DNA of 64,000 bases. Source: Desulfuromonas sp. CSMB_57 (GTDB taxonomy: Bacteria; Desulfobacterota; Desulfuromonadia; Desulfuromonadales; Syntrophotaleaceae). The stretch covers positions 62,001 through 126,000 of the forward strand of contig NZ_JAFCIY020000023.1 in the NCBI RefSeq assembly GCF_020194955.2, read 5' to 3'. The translations under genes were made by a program, and so were the position numbers. Below are positions 27,204 to 64,000 of this stretch, piece by piece; within the stretch, counting starts at the first letter, position 1, and every line of letters begins with the position of its first letter. Under the pieces are notes generated by a model that was not told where the DNA came from, did no database searches, and worked only from the letters and a program-made list of their open reading frames with translations.

Positions 27204-27363
27204 GCAAGGCGAAAGGCTTCGCGGCCGTCAGCCGGAGTTTATCTCCGGGGATTGAGCAAACGGTTCACTCCGGGCGGTTCGGCAATTTTAAAGGGGCGGC
27301 AGGGCGACATCAGCGTGGCCGGGTTACGGAGAAATCCGGTCTTTCAAGCATGGGGAGGGAGTC

Positions 27364-28524
27364 ATGACAGAACGCGTTATATTTGAATTCGACGAAGACC
27401 TGGATCAAACGGCGAAGATCAAGGTCATCGGTGTCGGCGGTGGCGGCGGCAACGCCGTCAATACCATGATCATGGCCGAACTGGAGGGGGTCGATTTTGT
27501 TGTCGCCAATACCGACGCCCAAGCCCTGCGCAAGAGCCAGGCGCCGGTCAAGGTGCAACTCGGCAACAAGCTGACCAAGGGGCTGGGTGCGGGCGCCAAT
27601 CCTGAAGTCGGTCGCGAGGCCGCCAACGAGGACCGGGTGCGCCTGGCCGAGATTTTGGAAGGGGCGGACATGGTGTTCATCGCTGCCGGGCTCGGCGGCG
27701 GTACCGGCACCGGAGCCGCGCCGATTATTGCCGAGGTGGCCAAAGAGCAGGGCGCCCTCACCGTCGCCGTGGTCACCAAGCCTTTCACCCGTGAAGGCAA
27801 GCAACGCATGAAGAAGGCCGGTCAGGGCATCGACCTGCTCAAGGATGTGGTGGACTCCCTGATTGTCATACCCAATGATCGTCTGCTCGGTCTGTCAGGC
27901 AAAAATACCAGCATTCTCGACGCCTTCAAACCCTCGGATGATGTCCTGCGGCAGGCGGTTCAGGGGATCTCCGAGCTGATAACCACCAGTGGTCTGATCA
28001 ACGTCGACTTTGCCGACGTCAAGGCGGTCATGAGTGAGCGCGGCATGGCCATGATGGGTATCGGTGTGGCCGAAGGCGAGCGGCGGGCGGCCGAAGCCGC
28101 CCATCGGGCCATCAGCAGCCCGCTGCTGGAGGAGATCGACATCTCCGGCGCCAAGGGCGTGCTGGTCAACATCACCGCTTCTTCCAGCATGACCATGGAG
28201 GAGTTCGACGAGGCATCCAGCATCATCCACGAGAAGGTGCACGAGGATGCCAACATCATCATCGGCCTGGTCATCAATGAAGAACTCGGTGAGCGCATTA
28301 AAATTACCGCCATTGCCACCGGTTTCGGCGATTCCTTCGAGAAGGGGCGCCGCAACGTCGAGGATTTGCGCAGTCGCACCGTTGCCGGGCTGGAGAAGGT
28401 CGACCGCGATCTGCCGACGTTCATCCGGGAGCGCCAGAAGGATGGCCCCAAGCTGTATCGTACTCCCCTGGGCGAAGAACATGAGTTCGACATCCCCACC
28501 TTCCTGCGCAAGCGGGTGGACTGA
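27364..28524 (+). CDS. ftsZ: Cell division GTPase FtsZ
   Basis: 386 residues. The tubulin signature [12 protein letters not shown] is near residues 101-112, with [23 protein letters not shown], and [11 protein letters not shown] in the T7-loop region. The C-terminal peptide [15 protein letters not shown] contains the conserved D-I-P-x-F-L motif that binds FtsA. GGGGAGGGAG lies directly before ATG 27364. The 160-base gap to ftsA has a small CCGGAG/CTCCGG hairpin (27232-27248) without a T tract. It ends the dcw cluster; a strong terminator follows at 28683. Confidence 0.98.
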
Positions 28525-28682
28525 ACGTCATAGCCCGACAGAGGTTCCGGGTCGGAACGCCGTGATGGGAAAGGATCTCCGCCTTTCCCTCTCACCTCCG
28601 CCGCAACGAGCCTTGGTCGCCATGCCCCAAAAGCGTCCCTGAGTTTTCAGGACTCCGCTTTTCGTTCGATGACTCCCTTTTC
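28525..28682. other. ftsZ 3' untranslated region
   Basis: No convincing gene. It holds a perfect eight-base-pair hairpin (GGGAAAGG 28567-28574 with CCTTTCCC 28582-28589, loop of seven) that lacks a T tract. The actual terminator follows at 28683, so the ftsZ message would carry about 180 bases of 3' UTR. Confidence 0.5.
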
Positions 28683-28712
28683 GGGGGCTGCCGTGCTGCA
28701 GCCCCCTTTTTT
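28683..28712 (+). terminator. Intrinsic terminator of the dcw cluster
   Basis: Nine-base-pair stem GGGGGCTGC/GCAGCCCCC with a six-base loop, then six T. It is one of the strongest terminators in the window. Confidence 0.9.
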
Positions 28713-28950
28713 CATTTTTTCCCATCTCACCGCCTCCATCCGACAAGTGGGTTTACCCTTTGCCCCTGTCAGAAGAATCCGCCGATTGGCGTTACTTCAA
28801 AAAATGGCTGTCAAAGAGCGCCCATCGAGGGAGCCCGGCGCCCGGATGACCACTTTATTGCTCTCCAAAACCCCCGATTTGGCAAAAGACCCTGAGATTT
28901 TCTACCATTTTTGTTTGAAGAAACTAAACAATGTGATTCGCCGTTCCCTT
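28713..28950. other. Intergenic stretch without a supported gene
   Basis: Short open frames exist (one ends at 28959, of at most 96 codons), but none has a ribosome-binding site, recognisable family or the host codon bias. GC content falls towards its right end, where the repeat cluster at 28951 begins. Confidence 0.4.
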
Positions 28951-29039
28951 AGGTTATAAACGGTAAACAGGTTATATCAAAAATAACCTAAAATGACCTT
29001 GTGGGAGTAAAAATTACCTTTGACAACCAAAAATAACAT
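28951..29039 (+). promoter_or_regulatory. Phased direct repeats upstream of an unknown transcript (possible operator)
   Basis: Four copies of an A-rich decamer close to AAAATAACCT end at 28989 (ATAACCT), 28999 (ATGACCT), 29019 (ATTACCT) and 29039 (ATAACAT). The spacing is 10, 20 and 20 bases, one or two turns of DNA. Two inverse copies, AGGTTATA, stand at 28951-28958 and 28969-28976, 18 bases apart. The third decamer directly abuts the -35 box at 29020. This is the layout of a multi-site activator or repressor, but the regulator is unknown. Confidence 0.6.
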
Positions 29040-29048
29040 TGATAGAGT
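29020..29048 (+). promoter_or_regulatory. Putative sigma70 promoter of the 29.06-29.63 kb transcript
   Basis: TTGACA (29020-29025), 17-base spacer, TAGAGT (29043-29048). The predicted start site is about 29055, directly at the ATG of the first small frame. A terminator at 29598-29627 on the same strand defines a unit of about 570 bases. Confidence 0.65.
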
Positions 29049-29055
29049 TGGAAGC

Positions 29056-29205
29056 ATGCAGGGCGGTGGGCATGTCCTTTGGATTGCCGACACTTTTCCG
29101 GCCGGAAGTGTCGATGTGGTTGTAACGAGACGAAAAAGGTTTCGTAGGGTTTCGAAGCTCTCCGGCGTGATTTGCTTTCGCTGCTGGTCCGGCTTCGATG
29201 GATGA
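29056..29205 (+). CDS. Small open reading frame of unknown function (49 codons)
   Basis: I do not recognise this product. It would be a basic 49-residue peptide starting MQGGGHVLWIADTF, with a run of Arg and Lys near residues 25-35 and two Cys near the end. It begins at or within one base of the predicted transcription start, so it would be leaderless or nearly so; only GGA lies before it. Codon third positions are far less GC-rich than in the neighbouring genes. A hairpin (29088-29113, CGACACTT with AAGTGTCG) falls inside it. Its stop overlaps the next frame (ATGA at 29202). It may equally be a non-coding RNA segment. Confidence 0.3.
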   Translation: MQGGGHVLWIADTFPAGSVDVVVTRRKRFRRVSKLSGVICFRCWSGFDG

Positions 29206-29534
29206 TAGTTCGTGCCAACAGGGAAACGGGGGTTATCATGGTGGGAAAAAGAGATGCAAAACTGGTAGTCAGGGGCGTAAACGGGACGATCTATGAATTG
29301 CCGGAGCGACTGGTGCGCTTCAAGCAGGCGATTTTGGCCCGCAAGGCTCGCGCAGGGGCGGTGGGAGCGATGGGAACCTGTAGCAGGAAACCGGCCGTGA
29401 GGCATGATCTGCGGTTCCTCTGTGAATTGGCGGCACGGATCGTCCAGTCTAAAAAGTTCCATTTGCACCGGGTCCAGCGTTCCGGCGTTGTGGGTCGCAT
29501 GGGGCGGCAGCAGGTAATCGGGTATAAACACTGA
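29202..29534 (+). CDS. Small open reading frame of unknown function (110 codons)
   Basis: Not recognised. From ATG 29202 it gives a basic protein of 110 residues without membrane segment or signal peptide; a second ATG at 29238 follows a GGGGG run and may be the true start (98 residues). The middle reads ELPERLVRFKQAILARKAR, a plausible helix. It overlaps the preceding small frame by four bases (ATGA), which hints at coupled translation if both are coding. Codon use is atypical. The terminator comes 64 bases after the stop. A structural or regulatory RNA remains an alternative. Confidence 0.35.
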   Translation: MIVRANRETGVIMVGKRDAKLVVRGVNGTIYELPERLVRFKQAILARKARAGAVGAMGTCSRKPAVRHDLRFLCELAARIVQSKKFHLHRVQRSGVVGRMGRQQVIGYKH

Positions 29535-29597
29535 TTGCAGGACAAAAAACCGGCGGCGCGACCTAAAGTCCGTCTGACTGCATTCAAGAAATTTCCA

Positions 29598-29627
29598 GGG
29601 GGACACATGCTGTGTCCCCCTTTTTTT
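29598..29627 (+). terminator. Perfect intrinsic terminator of the unknown transcript
   Basis: Ten-base-pair perfect stem GGGGGACACA/TGTGTCCCCC, three-base loop, seven T. The T tract is on the plus strand only, so it ends plus-strand transcription. Confidence 0.92.
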
Positions 29628-30088
29628 GGTAAAATTTGCCGAGCTTGGTTGTGTACCTGATCCGGCGGTGACAAAACCCATCCAGACCGTTTTGAATTTC
29701 AGCCGTGAAATTGCATAATAATTGTTCAGCTGCTCCCGGAAATGCACAAAAAAAACCTTTGCGTTCCCCGGTTCATTATGCGAAGGTCAAGGAGTTGAAT
29801 GTTATCCGCAGGTAGTTTCTAGCGGGTTTTTGACAAACGAACTCCATGCATTTCGACCGTGGCCGTCCGATTGGCAGGTTCGTGCCGGCAGACAGATTCC
29901 CATTCCGCCTACGACATGCCATCGCGTCCGCTGCGCCTTGCCGAGTCGGGGCGGACCGGGCGCAACAATAAAGGGTTCAACCGGAGCCGCCTCGAAAGAG
30001 GCGGCTTTGGCGTGGTGGGTCCGGTATTGCAGGAGGTGTCGGGTCGTCGTCGCGGACCTTTCAAGCCCAGCGGCAGGAATGGCGTAAC
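29628..30088 (+). promoter_or_regulatory. Long leader/promoter region of the atp operon
   Basis: About 460 bases without a supported gene; no atpI-like membrane protein is present. A possible promoter is TTGAAT (29692-29697), 16 bases, CATAAT (29714-29719). Nearer to atpB is a perfect nine-base-pair hairpin capped by a GAAA tetraloop (AGCCGCCTC 29985-29993 with GAGGCGGCT 29998-30006), followed by only three T, so it looks more like a leader structure than an efficient terminator. Open frames here lack ribosome-binding sites and host codon bias. Confidence 0.45.
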
Positions 30089-30793
30089 ATGAATCATCCT
30101 TTTTTGATTCTGGAATGGCTTGCAAAGCAATTGCCCCTTGGCATGAGTCCGGAGCAGTTAGACCGCTACGGCTATTTCGGGCATGTCACCGGAGTCTGGA
30201 TGGTCATGCTGTTGCTCATTGGTGTGGGGTTGCTGACGCGGCGGCGTCTGGGAGAAACTCCCGGGGCTTTGCAAAATGCGGTGGAATTGATCGTGGAGGA
30301 ACTGGAACGGTTGATGGATGCCACCATGGGTCCGAAAGGCCGCAAATATTTCCCTCTCATTGCCACTCTGGCGCTCTTCATCCTGGTTTCCAATCTCATC
30401 TCCCTGATACCCGGTTTCGCTCCGCCGACCGCCAATATCAACACCAACGCCGCCTTGGCCCTGACGGTGTTCGCCATGACCCACATCATCGGCGTTCGGG
30501 AGCATGGTCTGAGTTATCTCAAGCATTTCACGGGTCCCATCTGGTGGCTGGCGCCCATCATGCTGCCCATCGAACTGATAGGCCATCTTTCCCGACCTCT
30601 GTCCTTGTCGTTACGTCTGTTCGGCAACATGTATGGACATGAAGTGGTGCTTATGATTTTCTTTGCCCTGATGCCAATGCTGGTGCCCATCCCTATGATT
30701 GTTCTGGGAATTCTGGTGGCGTTGATTCAAAGCTTCGTTTTTACCCTGTTGAGCATGATCTACATAGCCGGTGCCCTGGAGGAAACACATTAG
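30089..30793 (+). CDS. atpB: F-type ATP synthase subunit a
   Basis: 234 residues, five to six membrane helices. The essential arginine of the ion channel lies in [14 protein letters not shown] (about R173), and the C-terminal helix ends with [15 protein letters not shown]. Subunit a forms the two half-channels next to the c ring. ATG 30089 starts [15 protein letters not shown]; there is little ribosome-binding sequence before it. It opens the operon atpB-E-F'-F-H-A-G-D-C. Confidence 0.96.
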
Positions 30794-30854
30794 TCAGAAT
30801 TAAAGATGCTTCTTGGTTGTTCAACCTGTTGCTGCATGGAAGGAGACATTGAGC

Positions 30855-31121
30855 ATGGATTATTTTAGCTGGTGTATCATCGTTGCCGGTTTCGGCATGG
30901 CGGTTGGCGCGGTCGGACCGAGTCTGGGGCAGGGGTTGGCGGTCAAATCCGCTTTGGAGGCGGTGGCCCGCAATCCCGGCGCCAGCGGCAAAATCCTGAC
31001 GACCATGATGATCGGCTTGGCCATGGTCGAATCGGTTGCGATTTACGTGTTCGTCGTAGCCATGATCATTCTGTTCGCCAACCCCTTTACAGAGCATGTG
31101 CTGACCCTGCTGGCGAAATAG
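30855..31121 (+). CDS. atpE: F-type ATP synthase subunit c
   Basis: 88 residues forming two membrane helices joined by the polar loop ARNPGASG. The carboxylate of helix 2 is E59 in AMVESVAIY. The helix 1 Gln (Q26 in SLGQGLA) and S60 and Y64 next to E59 match positions that bind Na+ in the Ilyobacter/Propionigenium c subunit, while the threonine of that site is replaced by valine. ATG 30855 follows AAGGAGA at nine bases; an in-frame start at 30813 would add 14 residues and lacks support. Confidence 0.95.
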   Translation: MDYFSWCIIVAGFGMAVGAVGPSLGQGLAVKSALEAVARNPGASGKILTTMMIGLAMVESVAIYVFVVAMIILFANPFTEHVLTLLAK

Positions 31122-31240
31122 AACGAGAAAACCCGGTCGATAATGGCCTCGGCCCGGTTTCTGAAGCAGGCATTCATGCGCCAGTCTGGCCGGGTGCCAT
31201 GCCATGGGACCAGGGGCAGGAAGAACAGAGAGGTTTACGA

Positions 31241-31666
31241 GTGCTCAAGCTTAACTGGACATTCTGGATGCAAGTGCTGAATTTTGCCATCCTGGTTCTG
31301 GTTATGGACTGGCTGCTCTATCGGCCCTTGCGAAACGTCATGCATCGTCGGCGCGAGGGCCTGCGGCAGACCGCGGAGCGGGTCGCCGGCCTGGAATCGG
31401 CGTTGGAGCAACAGGCCCGGGAATATCGCCGGCAACTGGCGGAGGCCAAACTGCAGGCCCAGGTCGAACGGGCGCAGGTGGTGGCGGCGGCCGCCGCCGA
31501 GCGGGATGCCTTGCTGGCCGCCGCCCAGCAGGAGGCGGTGACGCACAGTGCCGAAATCAGGACCGAGGTGGAACGGCAGCGGTTGACAGTCGCCGGGCAG
31601 TTGGCGGCCGAAACCCGACGCATTGCCCGGCAGCTGGCGGGACGGATTCTGGGGAGGCCGCTGTGA
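31241..31666 (+). CDS. atpF': F-type ATP synthase subunit b'
   Basis: 141 residues starting VLKLNWTFWMQVLNFAILV: one N-terminal membrane helix (residues 8-27) and then a long, charged, Ala-, Glu- and Arg-rich helix, the peripheral stalk. GTG 31241 is chosen because AGAGAGG lies seven bases before it. Two different b-type subunits follow one another, as in Geobacter-type and photosynthetic bacteria, so the stator is probably a b/b' heterodimer. The stop overlaps the next gene (GTGA). Confidence 0.9.
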   Translation: MLKLNWTFWMQVLNFAILVLVMDWLLYRPLRNVMHRRREGLRQTAERVAGLESALEQQAREYRRQLAEAKLQAQVERAQVVAAAAAERDALLAAAQQEAVTHSAEIRTEVERQRLTVAGQLAAETRRIARQLAGRILGRPL

Positions 31667-32246
31667 GGGCCTCGCGACGCGGCGGCCGGTTCCTGGTGGC
31701 CGGTATGGTGACGGTTGGCTCTCTGGTGATGATCCCTCCGGCCTGGGGAAATGAGGGGGAACACGCGGTGGGACACCTGCGGGATTTTCTGTATCGCTGT
31801 CTGGATACGGGTGTGACCCTGGGGCTGCTCGGCTATTTCCTGTTCGGTCCCTTGAAACGGGCTCTGGCCGCCCGCCGGAACCGCATCGCCGCGGAACTGG
31901 AGGAGGGTCGCAGAGCCGTGGCTGACATGGAGGCACGTCATGCAGCCGGGTTGCGCGAACTGGCCGCGGCGGGGTCGGTTGTGGAGGAACTTCGGTCCGG
32001 CATCCGTCGGGAGTGCGAAATTCAGCGGGAGCAGATTTTGGCCAGCGGTCGTCAGGCCGTTGCCCAGTTGCAGGCGCAGGTCACGGCGGCCGCGCAACGT
32101 GAGGTGAGCCAGGCCCGGCAGGTCCTGCAGCGCGAAGCGGCCCGGCAGGCAGTGGCGTTGGCCGAACAGTTGGTGCGTGAGGCCATGACTCCGGAAGATC
32201 ATCGCCGGTTGCTGGAAACTGCCTTGCAACAGGTGGCGGAGGAGTC

Positions 32247-32250
<4 letters not shown>
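31663..32250 (+). CDS. atpF: F-type ATP synthase subunit b
   Basis: 195 residues. It is unusual in having two hydrophobic segments: residues 9-28 look like a signal peptide or extra membrane helix (FLVAGMVTVGSLVMIPPAWG, Ala-rich end before NEG), and residues about 47-65 (DTGVTLGLLGYFLFGPLKRAL) are the usual b membrane helix. A long charged coiled coil follows. Such N-terminal extensions occur in Deltaproteobacterial b subunits. GTG 31663 overlaps the b' stop; the stop overlaps atpH. Confidence 0.9.
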
Positions 32251-34312
<2,062 letters not shown>

Positions 34313-34363
34313 TATGCCGTCAATCAGCCGGAACCGGCCGGACCGACCCGGGAGAGCGGTTGC

Positions 34364-36716
<2,353 letters not shown>

Positions 36717-36740
36717 GACTGCTGACGGGGAGGCGACATC

Positions 36741-37154
36741 ATGGCCATTCAACTGCACCTGGAAGTGGTGACCCCGACCCGGATCGTGCTGAGCGAATCC
36801 GTCGATGAAGTCAACGTGCCGGGCACCGTCGGGCAACTCGGCCTGTTGCCGGGGCATACCCCCCTGTTCACCACCCTTGAAGCCGGGGAACTGTCCTATC
36901 GGCAGGGCAAGGAAACCCGTTTCATGGCGGTGAACTGGGGCTATCTGGAAATCGCCGAAGATCGGGTGGTGGTACTGGTGGAAACCGCCGAAGCTGCCGA
37001 TCAGATCGATCTGGCGAGGGCCGAAGCGGCCCTGGGACGCGCCGAGGAAGAATTGCGCAAGCTGACGCCGGAAGACAAGGAATATCTGCTGGTGAGCCAC
37101 GCCCTGCAGCGGGCTCTGACCCGCATTCATGTTGCCTCCCATCATGGACGGTGA
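36741..37154 (+). CDS. atpC: F-type ATP synthase subunit epsilon
   Basis: 137 residues: N-terminal beta sandwich (LHLEVVTPTRIVLSESVDEV, VPGTVGQLGLLPGHTPLFTTL) and C-terminal helical hairpin starting DLARAEAALGRAEEELRKL. It regulates and couples rotation. GGGGAGG precedes ATG 36741. An intrinsic terminator follows the stop by about 24 bases and closes the operon. Confidence 0.96.
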   Translation: MAIQLHLEVVTPTRIVLSESVDEVNVPGTVGQLGLLPGHTPLFTTLEAGELSYRQGKETRFMAVNWGYLEIAEDRVVVLVETAEAADQIDLARAEAALGRAEEELRKLTPEDKEYLLVSHALQRALTRIHVASHHGR

Positions 37155-59553: not shown

Positions 59554-60023
59554 GGCTTCATAATGCCGCCGTCGGCCGCCGCTATTCCCAGGAGTCCGGT
59601 TTCAGCCTGGTCGAGGTGTTGGTTGCGTTGATGATACTGACGGTCGGTTTGCTTGGTCTGGCCGGCCTGCAGGGGCGGGGACTCCGCGACAGCCAAAGCG
59701 CTCTGGTGCGTTCCCGGGCCGTGCAATGCGCCGAAGATATTCTGGATCGCATGCGGGCCAATCGGGCCAATGCCGGAGCTTATGCTGTCGGTATCGGCGC
59801 GCCCGGGCCCGATGAATGGGATGATATGGATGGCTTGCTTGCTGAATTGAGCGGTTATGCAGGAATCGTTCAGACTGACTTGGGCGAATGGAAGTTCAGC
59901 CTCGCCCAATCCTTGCCCGAAGGCGACGGTTCGGTGGCGGTCAACGGCAACCTTACGACCGTCGTGGTGCAGTGGACCGAATCGGGCGAGGCGCAAACCG
60001 TAACTGTGGTGACGAGGTTATGA
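59544..60023 (+). CDS. pilV: Type IV pilus minor pilin PilV
   Basis: 159 residues. Prepilin motif QESG|FSLVEVLVALMILTVGLLGLAGLQ with Glu at +5 and the PilV-typical helix ending in GLQ. The region RAVQCAEDILDRMRANRANA near residues 60-80 is the conserved PilV block. It overlaps fimT2 by ten bases and pilW by four. PilV, PilW and PilX form the tip complex with PilY1. Confidence 0.92.
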   Translation: MSLRLHNAAVGRRYSQESGFSLVEVLVALMILTVGLLGLAGLQGRGLRDSQSALVRSRAVQCAEDILDRMRANRANAGAYAVGIGAPGPDEWDDMDGLLAELSGYAGIVQTDLGEWKFSLAQSLPEGDGSVAVNGNLTTVVVQWTESGEAQTVTVVTRL

Positions 60024-61114
60024 TGAACTGTCAAAAAATGTTTTTCAGGCGCCTGGTGTCGCAGACCGGCATCACTTTGGTGGAAATGCTGGTGGCAATG
60101 GTGATTGGGCTCATACTGGCCGGCGGTATTTACCAAGTATTTGTCGGCAGTTCGGAAAGCTATCAACTGAACACGCAACTGGCGCGGGTGCAGGAGAGCG
60201 GTCGCTTTGCCATGCAACTCCTGCGGCAGGAAATTCGCGGTGCGGGTTACCTGGGCTGTGCACAGGATGTGGACGCCTATACCTCGTTGCTCAACAATTC
60301 AAATTTCTATCTCTTTGAGTTCAACAACGCCATTTACGGCCTTGAAGCTACCGGCAACAATACCTGGGCTGACAATTCCCAAGGTTTCACCCAGGCGCAA
60401 CTCGGGACCCAGTTGGCCATCGATACTCCCCTGAGTGGAAGTGATATTGTCGTTATTCGAGGTGTTTTCGGTGGCAATATTACCATGTATACGGAAATGC
60501 CTCCTCCTTCGGCGGATATGAAAGTTGCGAACGCTGCTGGCATTATTAACGACAATGACATTCTGATGATCTCGGACTGCAGCCATGCATCCGTTTTTCA
60601 AGTGAGCAGTTTTAATCCAAATAACGGCAACCTCGTTTACAATACCGGCGGCAATTACGTTCTGGGTGATGCGGGGTTTCCAGGGAATGCCACCAAAATT
60701 CTGGGTCATGACTATAAAATCGGAGCTGAGATTGTCCGAATCCGCAGCGCGGTATTTTTCATCCGACTCAATCCTGGCAATCAACCTGCCTTATATATGA
60801 AAGAAGGCGTCGCTCCTGCCGTCGAGCTCGTCGAGGGTGTGGAAAGCATGCAGATTCGCTACGGTGAGGATACCAATAACGACGGTACGGTCGATACTTA
60901 TGTCAATGCCAATCAGGTCGGAAACTGGGAGAGGGTGCGCAGCGTTCGCATCGGCTTGCTGTTGCGCAGCACGGCCGAAGCGGGGCGTGGACCCGTTGAC
61001 AATAATGTCTACGATGTTTCCGGCGATGGCAATGACGATTTCGGACCGGTTGGCGACCGGCGCTTGCGATTGGTCATGAGCGGCACCGTCGGCTTGCGCA
61101 ACCGCCTTCGTTAA
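60020..61114 (+). CDS. pilW: Type IV pilus minor pilin PilW
   Basis: 364 residues. Prepilin motif SQTG|ITLVEMLVAMVIGLILAGGIYQVF with Glu at +5, followed by LARVQESGRFAMQLLRQEIRGAGYLGC, the conserved PilW region. The C terminus RLRLVMSGTVGLRNRLR also fits the family. The middle is Asn-rich and mildly AT-rich. ATG 60020 or 60023 can start; the longer open frame upstream is inside pilV. pilX begins at its stop. Confidence 0.92.
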   Translation: MMNCQKMFFRRLVSQTGITLVEMLVAMVIGLILAGGIYQVFVGSSESYQLNTQLARVQESGRFAMQLLRQEIRGAGYLGCAQDVDAYTSLLNNSNFYLFEFNNAIYGLEATGNNTWADNSQGFTQAQLGTQLAIDTPLSGSDIVVIRGVFGGNITMYTEMPPPSADMKVANAAGIINDNDILMISDCSHASVFQVSSFNPNNGNLVYNTGGNYVLGDAGFPGNATKILGHDYKIGAEIVRIRSAVFFIRLNPGNQPALYMKEGVAPAVELVEGVESMQIRYGEDTNNDGTVDTYVNANQVGNWERVRSVRIGLLLRSTAEAGRGPVDNNVYDVSGDGNDDFGPVGDRRLRLVMSGTVGLRNRLR

Positions 61115-61635
61115 TGGGGGAGATGATGATGCTTCATAGTGCAGCCAACAACAGGGGCGCGGTGTTGGTCACCGGCCTGATTATTCTGGTGGTGCTGTCC
61201 CTCATTGGTCTGGTCGCCATGCAGAGTACCACCTTGCAGGAGCGCATGGCCGGCAACCTGGAACAGCGTGATGCGGCTTTTCAGGCGGCCGAAGCCGGTT
61301 TGCGGGGCGCCGAGGAATGGCTTAACAGCGTCGTTATCTTGCCTGCCTTCGACAGTACCTGCAATAACGGCCTCTGCAAGCCCAAAACCGATGGCACGGT
61401 ATGGTGGAAAACCCTGGATTGGAACAATCCGGCCAAATATCGCACCTACCAGGAAGGCAATATCTCTGCCCGGTATATTATCGAACATGTGGCAAATACC
61501 AACATAACGGGTAGCGATTCAGTAAAATTTGCACCGGTTCCTGAGGAGGGGGCAGGTGTTTACAGAATTATCAGTCGTGGAATCAGCCCCAACGGGTTGG
61601 TAGAAGTTATTTTGCAGACCACATTTGTTCGTTAG
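61114..61635 (+). CDS. pilX: Type IV pilus minor pilin PilX
   Basis: About 170 residues. The N-terminal helix GAVLVTGLIILVVLSLIGLVAMQST and the downstream ERMAGNLEQRDAAFQAAEAGLRGAEEWL are the PilX N-terminal signature. As usual for PilX, the classical G|F(x3)E prepilin site is not obvious (NNRG|AVLV, no Glu at +5). The ATG at 61114 overlaps the pilW stop; GGGGGAG (61116-61122) favours one of the ATGs at 61123, 61126 or 61129 as the actual start. Confidence 0.88.
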   Translation: MGEMMMLHSAANNRGAVLVTGLIILVVLSLIGLVAMQSTTLQERMAGNLEQRDAAFQAAEAGLRGAEEWLNSVVILPAFDSTCNNGLCKPKTDGTVWWKTLDWNNPAKYRTYQEGNISARYIIEHVANTNITGSDSVKFAPVPEEGAGVYRIISRGISPNGLVEVILQTTFVR

Positions 61636-61672
61636 ATTGTAATTTATAAATTAGTAAAAATTCGGAGGCTAT

Positions 61673-62026
61673 ATGATTCTAAATAGGACAAAAATGTCAA
61701 AATTAACTGCTTTGAAGATTTTTATCGCAACGCAGTTTATCCTTTTTTGTGCCAGTGCTTCATTTTCCGCCCAATCGAGTGGATATATTACTAGGGTAGA
61801 GCCTTTGTTGAACATGGTGGCGATTGATGGTCGGTTAAGCGAAGTATCAGGCGAGGCCAAGATTTATCGAGGTTTTTCTGAAAAAAATACAGAAAATATC
61901 AATTCTGTTCGTATAAATAATTACGTTATGTATAGAGTGTATAAAAATAAAATTGTCGAATTGAGAATTTTTGACAACCCAATTGATCCGGTTCGAATTG
62001 TTCCTTTGGTGGAAAGTTCCAAATAA
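61673..62026 (+). CDS. Small exported protein, PilY2-like
   Basis: 117 residues. A signal peptide spans residues 1 to about 33 (KIFIATQFILFCASASFS, cleavage near SFSA-Q). The mature part reads SGYITRVEPLLNMVAIDG, a short beta-rich domain with alternating hydrophobic residues. Size, export and position beside pilY1 resemble PilY2 of Pseudomonas, but sequence similarity is modest and the order is reversed (before pilY1). GGAGG precedes ATG 61673. The gene is very AT-rich, unlike pilX before it. Confidence 0.6.
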   Translation: MILNRTKMSKLTALKIFIATQFILFCASASFSAQSSGYITRVEPLLNMVAIDGRLSEVSGEAKIYRGFSEKNTENINSVRINNYVMYRVYKNKIVELRIFDNPIDPVRIVPLVESSK

Positions 62027-62051
62027 TTTTTCTATTTGAGGAATTAAAATA

Positions 62052-64000
62052 ATGAATAAAAATTTTTTAGCGATAAATATCAAAAGGCTTTTTCTCCTGG
62101 TATTTTTTGCTTTTTTTGGTGGTTCTCCGATTTTGGCAGGGACCATTTCGCAAGCCCCCTTATTTATATCCGGGGCTGATATCGATCCTAATATTATGTT
62201 TATTATTGATGATTCAGGTTCAATGCAATGGGAGTTTATGCCTGATGAAACAATGCATTTTTCTATTTATGTTTTTCCTGTCGTAAACAATGTATATGGG
62301 GGATCTGTTTATACAAATCAGGTTCCAAATTTTGATGACAATAATCTCCATAATTTTTTTAGTCGTTCTAGTGAAAACAATAAGGTTTTTTACAATCCTG
62401 ATATCACTTATAAACCATGGCATAATCATGATGGCACGCCAATGGCTGACGCAAACCCAACATGCGCCTACTATAATCCAGCTTCTACAGGCTTGGGCTG
62501 CATGAATCTGAAAGATCAAAACACAAAATATGCGCTCTGGTTTTATAATACAAGCAACCAAGATTTAAGTCAGGCATGGGGTAACTGGTCTAATCATACT
62601 TTTTGGCCTATCACCTACTATAATTATGTTGGCGGAAGTAGAACTTTGCGTTCCAGTTATACTCGGGTGCAAATCACGAGTTCTACGCCTTCCACGTCAA
62701 CGTTTACCAGTCCAAACGGAACAATCCGCACCCGCGATCAGGAAATTCAGAATTTTGCCAACTGGTACCAATACTATCGTTCAAGGATTCTGGCTTCTCG
62801 CGCGGGTATCGGCAAGGCATTTGCCGCTCAGGGAGAGTCGATCAGGGTTGGTTTCGGTGCTATCAACAAGGAGGCCTCCTCTGTTGATAACGTAAGTACC
62901 ACGACCATCATTCGTGGTGTGCGTCCCTTCAGTGGTTCCGATCGAGAGGATTTTTTTACCAGGCTCTACAACCACATTATCCCTACGTCGGGAACACCGT
63001 TGCGACGGGCTCTGGACGCTGCGGGACAATATTATATGCGAACCGACTCCCGTGGGCCATGCAGCACGACTCCTGGCCAATCCGGCGGGGATGATATCTC
63101 CTGTCGGCAGAACTACACGGTGCTTATGACTGATGGGTATTGGAACGGTTCTGCTGCTGCAACTGCGGCCGCGAGGGACAATGTCGATGGGCAGGCTGGT
63201 TCGTTGATTATCAATCCAAATCCGTCCAAAAGTAACTTTCAATATTCCCCGAAACCTCCCTATGAAGATGCCTGGTCCAATACTCTGGCCGATATTGCCA
63301 TGTATTACTGGAACCGCGATCTGCGGCCGGACCTGGACAACAATGTGCCAACTTCTACCTCCAACGAAGCCTTTTGGCAACATATGGTCACCTTCGGAGT
63401 CGGTCTTGGGGTTGCCGGGACCCTCGATCCAGAAAATGATTTTGCCGGTCTGGTGGCCGGTACCACGCAATGGCCGCAGCCCTACGCAGATGCCGGCCCC
63501 GCCAACGTCGATGATCTATGGCATGCGTCGGTAAATAGTCGTGGCGGCTTTTTCAGTGCTGCCGATCCGGATGTGTTTGCCGAGCGTCTGGGGGAGACAC
63601 TGGATAGCATTGTTTCCCAATCGATGGGGACAGCGGCGGCCATCGCTACCAACTCGACGCGTTTGGTGGATGGCGCCCTGATTTACCAGGCTAAATTCGA
63701 TAGCACTGACTGGAGCGGTGAGTTGGTCTGTTATCGCCTGGACCCTGATACCGGCTATGTCGACGGTACGGCATGGACCACGGATGATGCGGGTAGGATT
63801 CCCAGTCATGAGTCACGCAGGATTTTCACGTGGAATGGGAGTGCAGGGCTCCAGTTCTCGGAGAGTTCCTGGGATTCTCTTTCGGTGGCCCAGCGTACCG
63901 CCTTACAGGCTGGTGGGACCGTACAGCAAGGAAAAGATCGCCTCAACTGGATTCGAGGTCAACAGAGCAAAGAAGAGGGCCAAGCTGGCGGATATTTGCG
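62052..64000 (+). CDS. pilY1: PilY1-type pilus tip adhesin, 3' end beyond window
   Basis: 649 codons are present and the frame is still open at the edge. Signal peptide residues 1 to about 31 (RLFLLVFFAFFGGSPILA). A von Willebrand A-type domain follows directly: metal-site motif FIIDDSGSM (about residues 56-64) and a later LMTDGYW (about 358-364). The C-terminal part visible is the stretch before the PilY1 beta-propeller. PilY1 caps the minor pilin complex and acts in adhesion and retraction control. The first 210 codons are strongly AT-rich; the rest returns to normal GC content. No good ribosome-binding site is seen (AATTAAAATA). Confidence 0.9.
   Translation, partial: MNKNFLAINIKRLFLLVFFAFFGGSPILAGTISQAPLFISGADIDPNIMFIIDDSGSMQWEFMPDETMHFSIYVFPVVNNVYGGSVYTNQVPNFDDNNLHNFFSRSSENNKVFYNPDITYKPWHNHDGTPMADANPTCAYYNPASTGLGCMNLKDQNTKYALWFYNTSNQDLSQAWGNWSNHTFWPITYYNYVGGSRTLRSSYTRVQITSSTPSTSTFTSPNGTIRTRDQEIQNFANWYQYYRSRILASRAGIGKAFAAQGESIRVGFGAINKEASSVDNVSTTTIIRGVRPFSGSDREDFFTRLYNHIIPTSGTPLRRALDAAGQYYMRTDSRGPCSTTPGQSGGDDISCRQNYTVLMTDGYWNGSAAATAAARDNVDGQAGSLIINPNPSKSNFQYSPKPPYEDAWSNTLADIAMYYWNRDLRPDLDNNVPTSTSNEAFWQHMVTFGVGLGVAGTLDPENDFAGLVAGTTQWPQPYADAGPANVDDLWHASVNSRGGFFSAADPDVFAERLGETLDSIVSQSMGTAAAIATNSTRLVDGALIYQAKFDSTDWSGELVCYRLDPDTGYVDGTAWTTDDAGRIPSHESRRIFTWNGSAGLQFSESSWDSLSVAQRTALQAGGTVQQGKDRLNWIRGQQSKEEGQAGGYL

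Follow-up and report, generated by a model that had tools for sequence, protein, structure and literature searches.

Organization of the region between ftsZ and the atp operon

The window analyzed here is the whole stretch of 64,000 nucleotides (64 kb) of Desulfuromonas sp. CSMB_57 DNA. In it, ftsZ is followed by a long gap and then by nine atp genes (30089-37154) in the order BEFF'HAGDC, without atpZ or atpI. The genome contains a second atpB (G000 C64), which is of a distant type and 40% identical. In the family, the usual neighbour of ftsZ is a radical-SAM gene located 300-900 bases after it. This genome is the only one among the relatives compared in which the nine atp genes, together with the transcription unit flagged in the initial annotation (28951-29627), lie between ftsZ and the radical-SAM gene. 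The flagged unit may have come in, or originated, together with the atp operon that now parts ftsZ from its usual neighbour. The gap probably holds two independent things, an orphan transcription unit and a conserved, putatively self-pairing RNA corresponding to the 3' UTR of ftsZ. This RNA occupies the first 190 bases of the gap (28525-28713), upstream of the flagged unit, and had been missed in the initial annotation. The features of the region are the following:

27317..27341, forward strand: 5'-leader hairpin of ftsZ, loop ACGGAGA (GGA in the loop); the stem covaries and was seen in 41 leaders
27356..27365, forward strand: Shine-Dalgarno and start of ftsZ, AGGGAGTCAT, reverse complement of 28669-28678 (10-nt exact complement)
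27364..28524, forward strand: ftsZ, identified by its frame and by 82-91% homology to the ftsZ of the family
28567..28589, forward strand: hairpin A of the ftsZ 3' UTR, with a covarying stem; its loop UCUCCG is the complement of CGGAGA in the leader loop
28669..28678, forward strand: motif B of the ftsZ 3' UTR, AUGACUCCCU, complementary to the ftsZ Shine-Dalgarno and start; GACUCCC is conserved through the order
28683..28713, forward strand: terminator shared by ftsZ and the conserved 3'-UTR RNA (hairpin, covariation)
28951..29039, forward strand: operator-like cluster of phased half-sites (two AGGTTATA and four decamers of the ATNACCT type), supported by shuffles and unique in the genome
29020..29048, forward strand: sigma-70-type promoter TTGACA-17-TAGAGT (promoter score), with the last decamer in its spacer
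29238..29534, forward strand: orphan basic frame of 98 codons, GGGGG before the ATG, coding status putative
29597..29627, forward strand: terminator of the orphan unit (hairpin and T run)

Elsewhere in the window, the atpB leader contains a perfect hairpin, AGCCGCCTCGAAAGAGGCGGCT (29977-30010), followed by three T only, possibly an attenuator or a protein site. At the right end of the window (60001-64000), the GC content drops from ~0.63 to 0.44-0.49, which suggests foreign DNA. A second replication origin was considered and rejected, the GC skew having no turning point.

An orphan transcription unit with a putative operator

The initial annotation had described the flagged unit by its phased repeats, its promoter and its perfect terminator, and these elements were all recovered. 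The decamers AAAATAACCT, AAAATGACCT, AAAATTACCT and AAAATAACAT end at 28989, 28999, 29019 and 29039, with a spacing of 10, 20 and 20 bp, and the two inverse copies of AGGTTATA lie at 28951 and 28969. The promoter, TTGACA at 29020 and TAGAGT at 29048 separated by 17 bases, reached a score of 10/12 and includes an extended TG. The position of the last decamer within the promoter spacer had been overlooked. The terminator is a strong hairpin (stem 29597-29621 followed by the T run), with the caveat that shuffles hold terminator-like sites no less often than the real sequence. When the 126-bp promoter region was subjected to 2000 dinucleotide shuffles, none produced four in-phase copies (1 mismatch) of any 10-mer of its own, and the decamer type AAAATAACCT, with 1 mismatch allowed, has nine matches in the 64-kb window for 1.2 expected. 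Also, the genome-wide search for the decamer cluster that had been advised detected spaced half-site pairs at the flagged unit only, where the perfect inverted AGGTTAT-N7-ATAACCT has its sole occurrence in the genome.

The arrangement is that of an OmpR-type tandem operator, with direct half-sites ~10-11 bp apart near the -35 (here 10/20/20 bp). Head-to-tail half-sites that cover the -35 and the spacer on one helix face point to a tandem-binding regulator acting as a repressor: a protein bound to the ATNACCT half-sites would most simply repress the promoter or compete with RNA polymerase. Every decamer also opens with A4-5 in helical phase, so that the decamers could be phased A-tracts forming curved DNA, an UP-like element boosting the promoter rather than regulator sites. 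However, conservation extends to the ATNACCT portion, and AGGTTAT is present upstream in two inverse copies, which makes this explanation unlikely. A tandem operator near an atp operon has a published counterpart, as ColR, an OmpR/PhoB-type regulator with direct-repeat operators, was proposed for the atp operon of Pelobacter carbinolicus (PMC3543383). The ColR sites of this related genus resemble our cluster in having TNAC half-sites arranged head to tail at intervals of about one helical turn, and in lying beside an atp operon (PMC3543383). Unlike them, the cluster has no match to the ColR consensus YTNACNNTTTTTTSAC within 3 mismatches, and ColR was rejected as its regulator.

The operator pattern was also searched in all GTDB contigs and in viral contigs. 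The 84 and 10 stretches retrieved, respectively, were 10-bp minisatellites or coding sequence, and a group of 8 of them sits inside one conserved gene. None of the matches listed was followed by TTGACA, and no neighbouring family was recurrent. A MAG of Verrucomicrobia subdivision 3 (L106, L108, L121, L131, L136, L139, L155) contains many dispersed 10-bp arrays of TTGAATCACC with similar flanks, apparently a separate repeat family.

A dedicated transcription unit under a multi-site operator of its own fits the sequence; small proteins or a regulatory RNA, also proposed at the time, found no positive support. The promoter under this operator would drive a terminated transcript of ~570 nt, maybe carrying one small basic protein. 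The only sizeable frame on the strand of the unit is 29238-29534, with GGGGG six bases ahead of its ATG. A genuine orphan gene for this 98-aa basic protein, possibly an autoregulator binding the decamers, has in our view a little less than an even chance. It would be in keeping with the unit's own promoter and terminator, the GGGGG, an operator unique in the genome and the fact that the frame scores best of the six frames. However, its length is within chance (an ATG frame of 98 aa or longer arises in 13.7% of shuffles), and with a codon score of 0.05 per codon it falls far short of the genes of the 64-kb window (about 0.12-0.47). Moreover, the structure model (pLDDT 43) presented no confident fold and was too poor for a fold search. 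As the initial annotation had stated, no known protein family was recognized, the frame being unmatched in Pfam, NCBIfam and PHROGs. No credible homologue was found in the genomes of the order and class, GTDB contigs, viral contigs, plasmids or phages, the best outside match (E 1e-3) having two stops inside.

A non-coding regulatory RNA is somewhat less probable, and we regard it as rather unlikely, the coding and non-coding readings being nevertheless of similar weight. The transcript of 570 nt is framed by a promoter and a terminator and has no convincing gene, as would be expected of such an RNA. Against it, the predicted folding of the transcript was just slightly better than that of shuffles for the whole (z -1.8) and no better for the leader (5' part, z 0.1), and the absence of a known RNA family, already noted in the initial annotation, was borne out with Rfam 15 at gathering score. 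Covariation would require relatives, and the search for DNA relatives of the unit yielded just 20-40-bp chance pieces, with none in the 136 genomes of the order. Sub-threshold Rfam matches in the gap (DapZ, AniS, NiCo) were far under their gathering scores and were judged to be chance. An open frame of 256 codons runs antisense to the whole unit (28977-29747, reverse strand), and its codon usage is non-coding. Based on these sequence features, we call the flagged unit a lineage-specific or species-specific orphan, putatively transcribed from a promoter under a multi-site operator. It is of ordinary to moderate interest, and of little importance outside its own species unless expression data say otherwise.

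A conserved RNA in the 3' UTR of ftsZ

The ftsZ tail RNA is the more important part of the gap. A comparison of the ftsZ 3' flanks of relatives revealed that CTCCGC and GACTCCC recur ahead of the terminator, and the alignment of nine ftsZ tails presented a hairpin displaying UCUCCG and the terminator, with covariation. A first covariance model detected the RNA in 43 of the 136 genomes of the order; the fetched loci, many from other families, were directly behind ftsZ. With a second model (E <1e-8), about 88-90 of these 136 genomes were positive, as well as one of 141 genomes from the rest of the class, and a phylum-wide sample of 395 returned order members only. Among further loci of the second model, 28/29 were behind ftsZ and the remaining one was at a short contig end; an additional 7/7 were behind ftsZ. 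The tails have 95.7% of cells paired and 8 pairs with double changes, neither value being reached in any of 500 shuffles. Their loops are invariant, their stems vary, and the distance from the stop codon to the predicted terminator is 150-300 nt in all loci.

No radical-SAM gene was detected downstream of the tail RNA in L200, L201, L203 and L208. Since this gene went undetected downstream in several loci, and since the atp insertion of the window begins right after the terminator of the tail, the RNA belongs to ftsZ. This genome alone has an extra hairpin inside the tail (28629-28662, AAAAGCG...CGCTTTT) with a second CTCCGC.

A search of Rfam 15 at gathering score found no family in the window or in 20 ftsZ loci, and none related at E<=10 in 8 loci. 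Cuckoo RNAs, which present CCUCCUCCC in their loops, were considered and rejected, as the tail loops read UUCUCCGC and GACUCCCUC. A motif name has reportedly been published for ftsZ-linked RNAs; it was absent from the literature searched. As far as Rfam and this literature search can tell, the ftsZ tail would be a new element, although an earlier description is possible.

Complementarity between the tail and the leader of ftsZ

The two conserved tail loops, UUCUCCGC and GACUCCC, are the reverse complements of two elements in front of ftsZ, the leader loop GCGGAGA and the Shine-Dalgarno GAGGGAGUC, respectively. In the 64-kb window, the ftsZ start GGGAGGGAGTCATG and the tail ATGACTCCCT form a 10-nt exact reverse complement that is unique there, and ftsZ was the best match of motif B (10 nt) among the 48 gene starts of the window, the runner-up having 8. 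Across the order, motif B matches the ftsZ start over 8-11 nt in 36 of 41 distinct leaders, the match being weak in L192, L196 and L247. With the radical-SAM start at these loci, taken as a control, it matches over 3-5 nt in 27/28. Loop A (UUCUCCGC and variants) matches the leader element GCGGAGA(A), located about 35-70 nt upstream of the ftsZ start, over 6-12 nt in 38/41, vs 4-5 nt in 27/28 for the radical-SAM leader. In the family, a few of the longest matches to loop A (e.g., L189) fall closer to the start than the leader hairpin. In the window itself, the loop A complementarity is 6 nt, with a p of 0.36 when taken alone.

The stem of the leader hairpin covaries as well (83.7% of cells paired, double changes in 33 cells, covariation 0.660 vs 0.230, 0/500 shuffles). 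With GGA in the hairpin loop and at the Shine-Dalgarno, and the loop CGGAG in 40/41 leaders, the leader is laid out like a CsrA target.

Both sides of the complementarity changed together in L200 (GCGGAGTT/AACTCCGC) and L206 (ACGGAGA/TCTCCGT), and a lineage-matched change at the base after AUG distinguishes L189 (GGGAGTCATGA/TCATGACTCCC) from L193 (GGGAGTCATGT/ACATGACTCCC). For loop A, some genera (L186, L187, L211, L212, L215, L245) present no compensation. Over the unique pairs for this loop, true partners beat permuted ones except in 39 of 2000 permutations, this compensatory 5'-3' evidence being thin because leader and tail are both highly conserved.

Proposed self-control of ftsZ translation

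The complementarity between tail and leader most likely reflects a 5'-3' self-pairing control of ftsZ translation of the icaR kind, which would be new for ftsZ. We propose that the tail loop UUCUCCGC pairs with the leader hairpin loop GCGGAGA and that the tail GACUCCC pairs with the Shine-Dalgarno and start GAGGGAGUCAUG. Whether it occurs in cis or once the 3' end has been cut free, such a pairing would shut the ribosome-binding site and exert a feedback, presumably negative, on FtsZ synthesis. As the leader resembles a CsrA target, with GGA in its loop and at its Shine-Dalgarno, the tail could compete with CsrA.

Two other explanations have to be weighed. The tail could be freed to act in trans as an sRNA and mask, with its CUCC loops, the Shine-Dalgarno of many mRNAs, ftsZ being a special case. 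Its loops indeed carry CUCC, which is generally anti-Shine-Dalgarno and could serve many mRNAs, and the tail folds strongly in the window (z -3.0). However, the match runs past the generic Shine-Dalgarno core into GUC and AUG, it covers 8-11 nt at ftsZ vs 3-5 at the adjacent gene, none of the other starts among the 48 in the window does as well as that of ftsZ, and the partner of loop A is a leader hairpin and not a Shine-Dalgarno. We therefore hold a general trans-acting role to be improbable. Still more doubtful is that the tail would be an elaborate terminator or 3'-end stabilizer, its complementarity arising by coincidence between a purine-rich Shine-Dalgarno and a pyrimidine-rich tail. 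The tail does end in a standard terminator hairpin, but two separate conserved loops fit two separate conserved leader elements, the leader of the next gene is unmatched by these loops, and the loops are invariant while the stems change.

Self-control of ftsZ by its own tail is thus the reading that we retain. In its full form, to which we would give about an even chance, the Desulfuromonadales-type ftsZ mRNA would close on itself via two loop contacts, possibly competing with CsrA, and its own 3' UTR would set FtsZ synthesis as an order-wide RNA switch. Our comparisons suggest that FtsZ synthesis may be self-controlled across a whole bacterial order.

Comparison with known systems

The FtsZ level sets the time of cell division. 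To our knowledge, trans-acting RNAs such as DicF are the only native RNA regulators described for ftsZ. DicF, an sRNA of Escherichia coli, is prophage-derived and represses ftsZ in trans (PMC9438474). The putative action of the ftsZ tail, an RNA pairing that inhibits ftsZ translation, would be similar, except that the RNA is here the own tail of ftsZ. OppZ and CarZ of Vibrio cholerae are autoregulatory sRNAs derived from 3' UTRs; they correspond to the 3' end of an operon and pair with a translation start of their own transcript (review PMC9438474). The same relation was found in silico for ftsZ. OppZ, however, requires Hfq and RNase E processing and targets an internal cistron (PMC9438474), whereas the ftsZ case is deduced from genome sequences. 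The general features of CsrA/RsmA target leaders, described in a paper where ftsZ is unmentioned, include an upstream hairpin-loop GGA and a Shine-Dalgarno GGA (PMC11934962); the ftsZ leader is a predicted target of this type, which differs from these leaders by its additional complementary tail.

The closest likeness is with the icaR mRNA of Staphylococcus aureus, in which the pairing of a 3'-UTR motif with the Shine-Dalgarno blocks the initiation complex and creates an RNase III substrate (PMC3868564). As in icaR, the 3'-UTR motif of ftsZ is complementary to the Shine-Dalgarno region of its own mRNA (PMC3868564). The gene, the phylum and the sequence are different, and ftsZ is further distinguished by two loops facing two leader elements, by the covariation of the leader hairpin and by order-wide conservation. 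The ftsZ tail would act by a type of regulation that is known but rare, here applied to an essential gene and extending over an order. If true, an order-wide self-pairing ftsZ mRNA would represent a conserved bacterial case of communication between the 5' and 3' UTRs of an essential gene.
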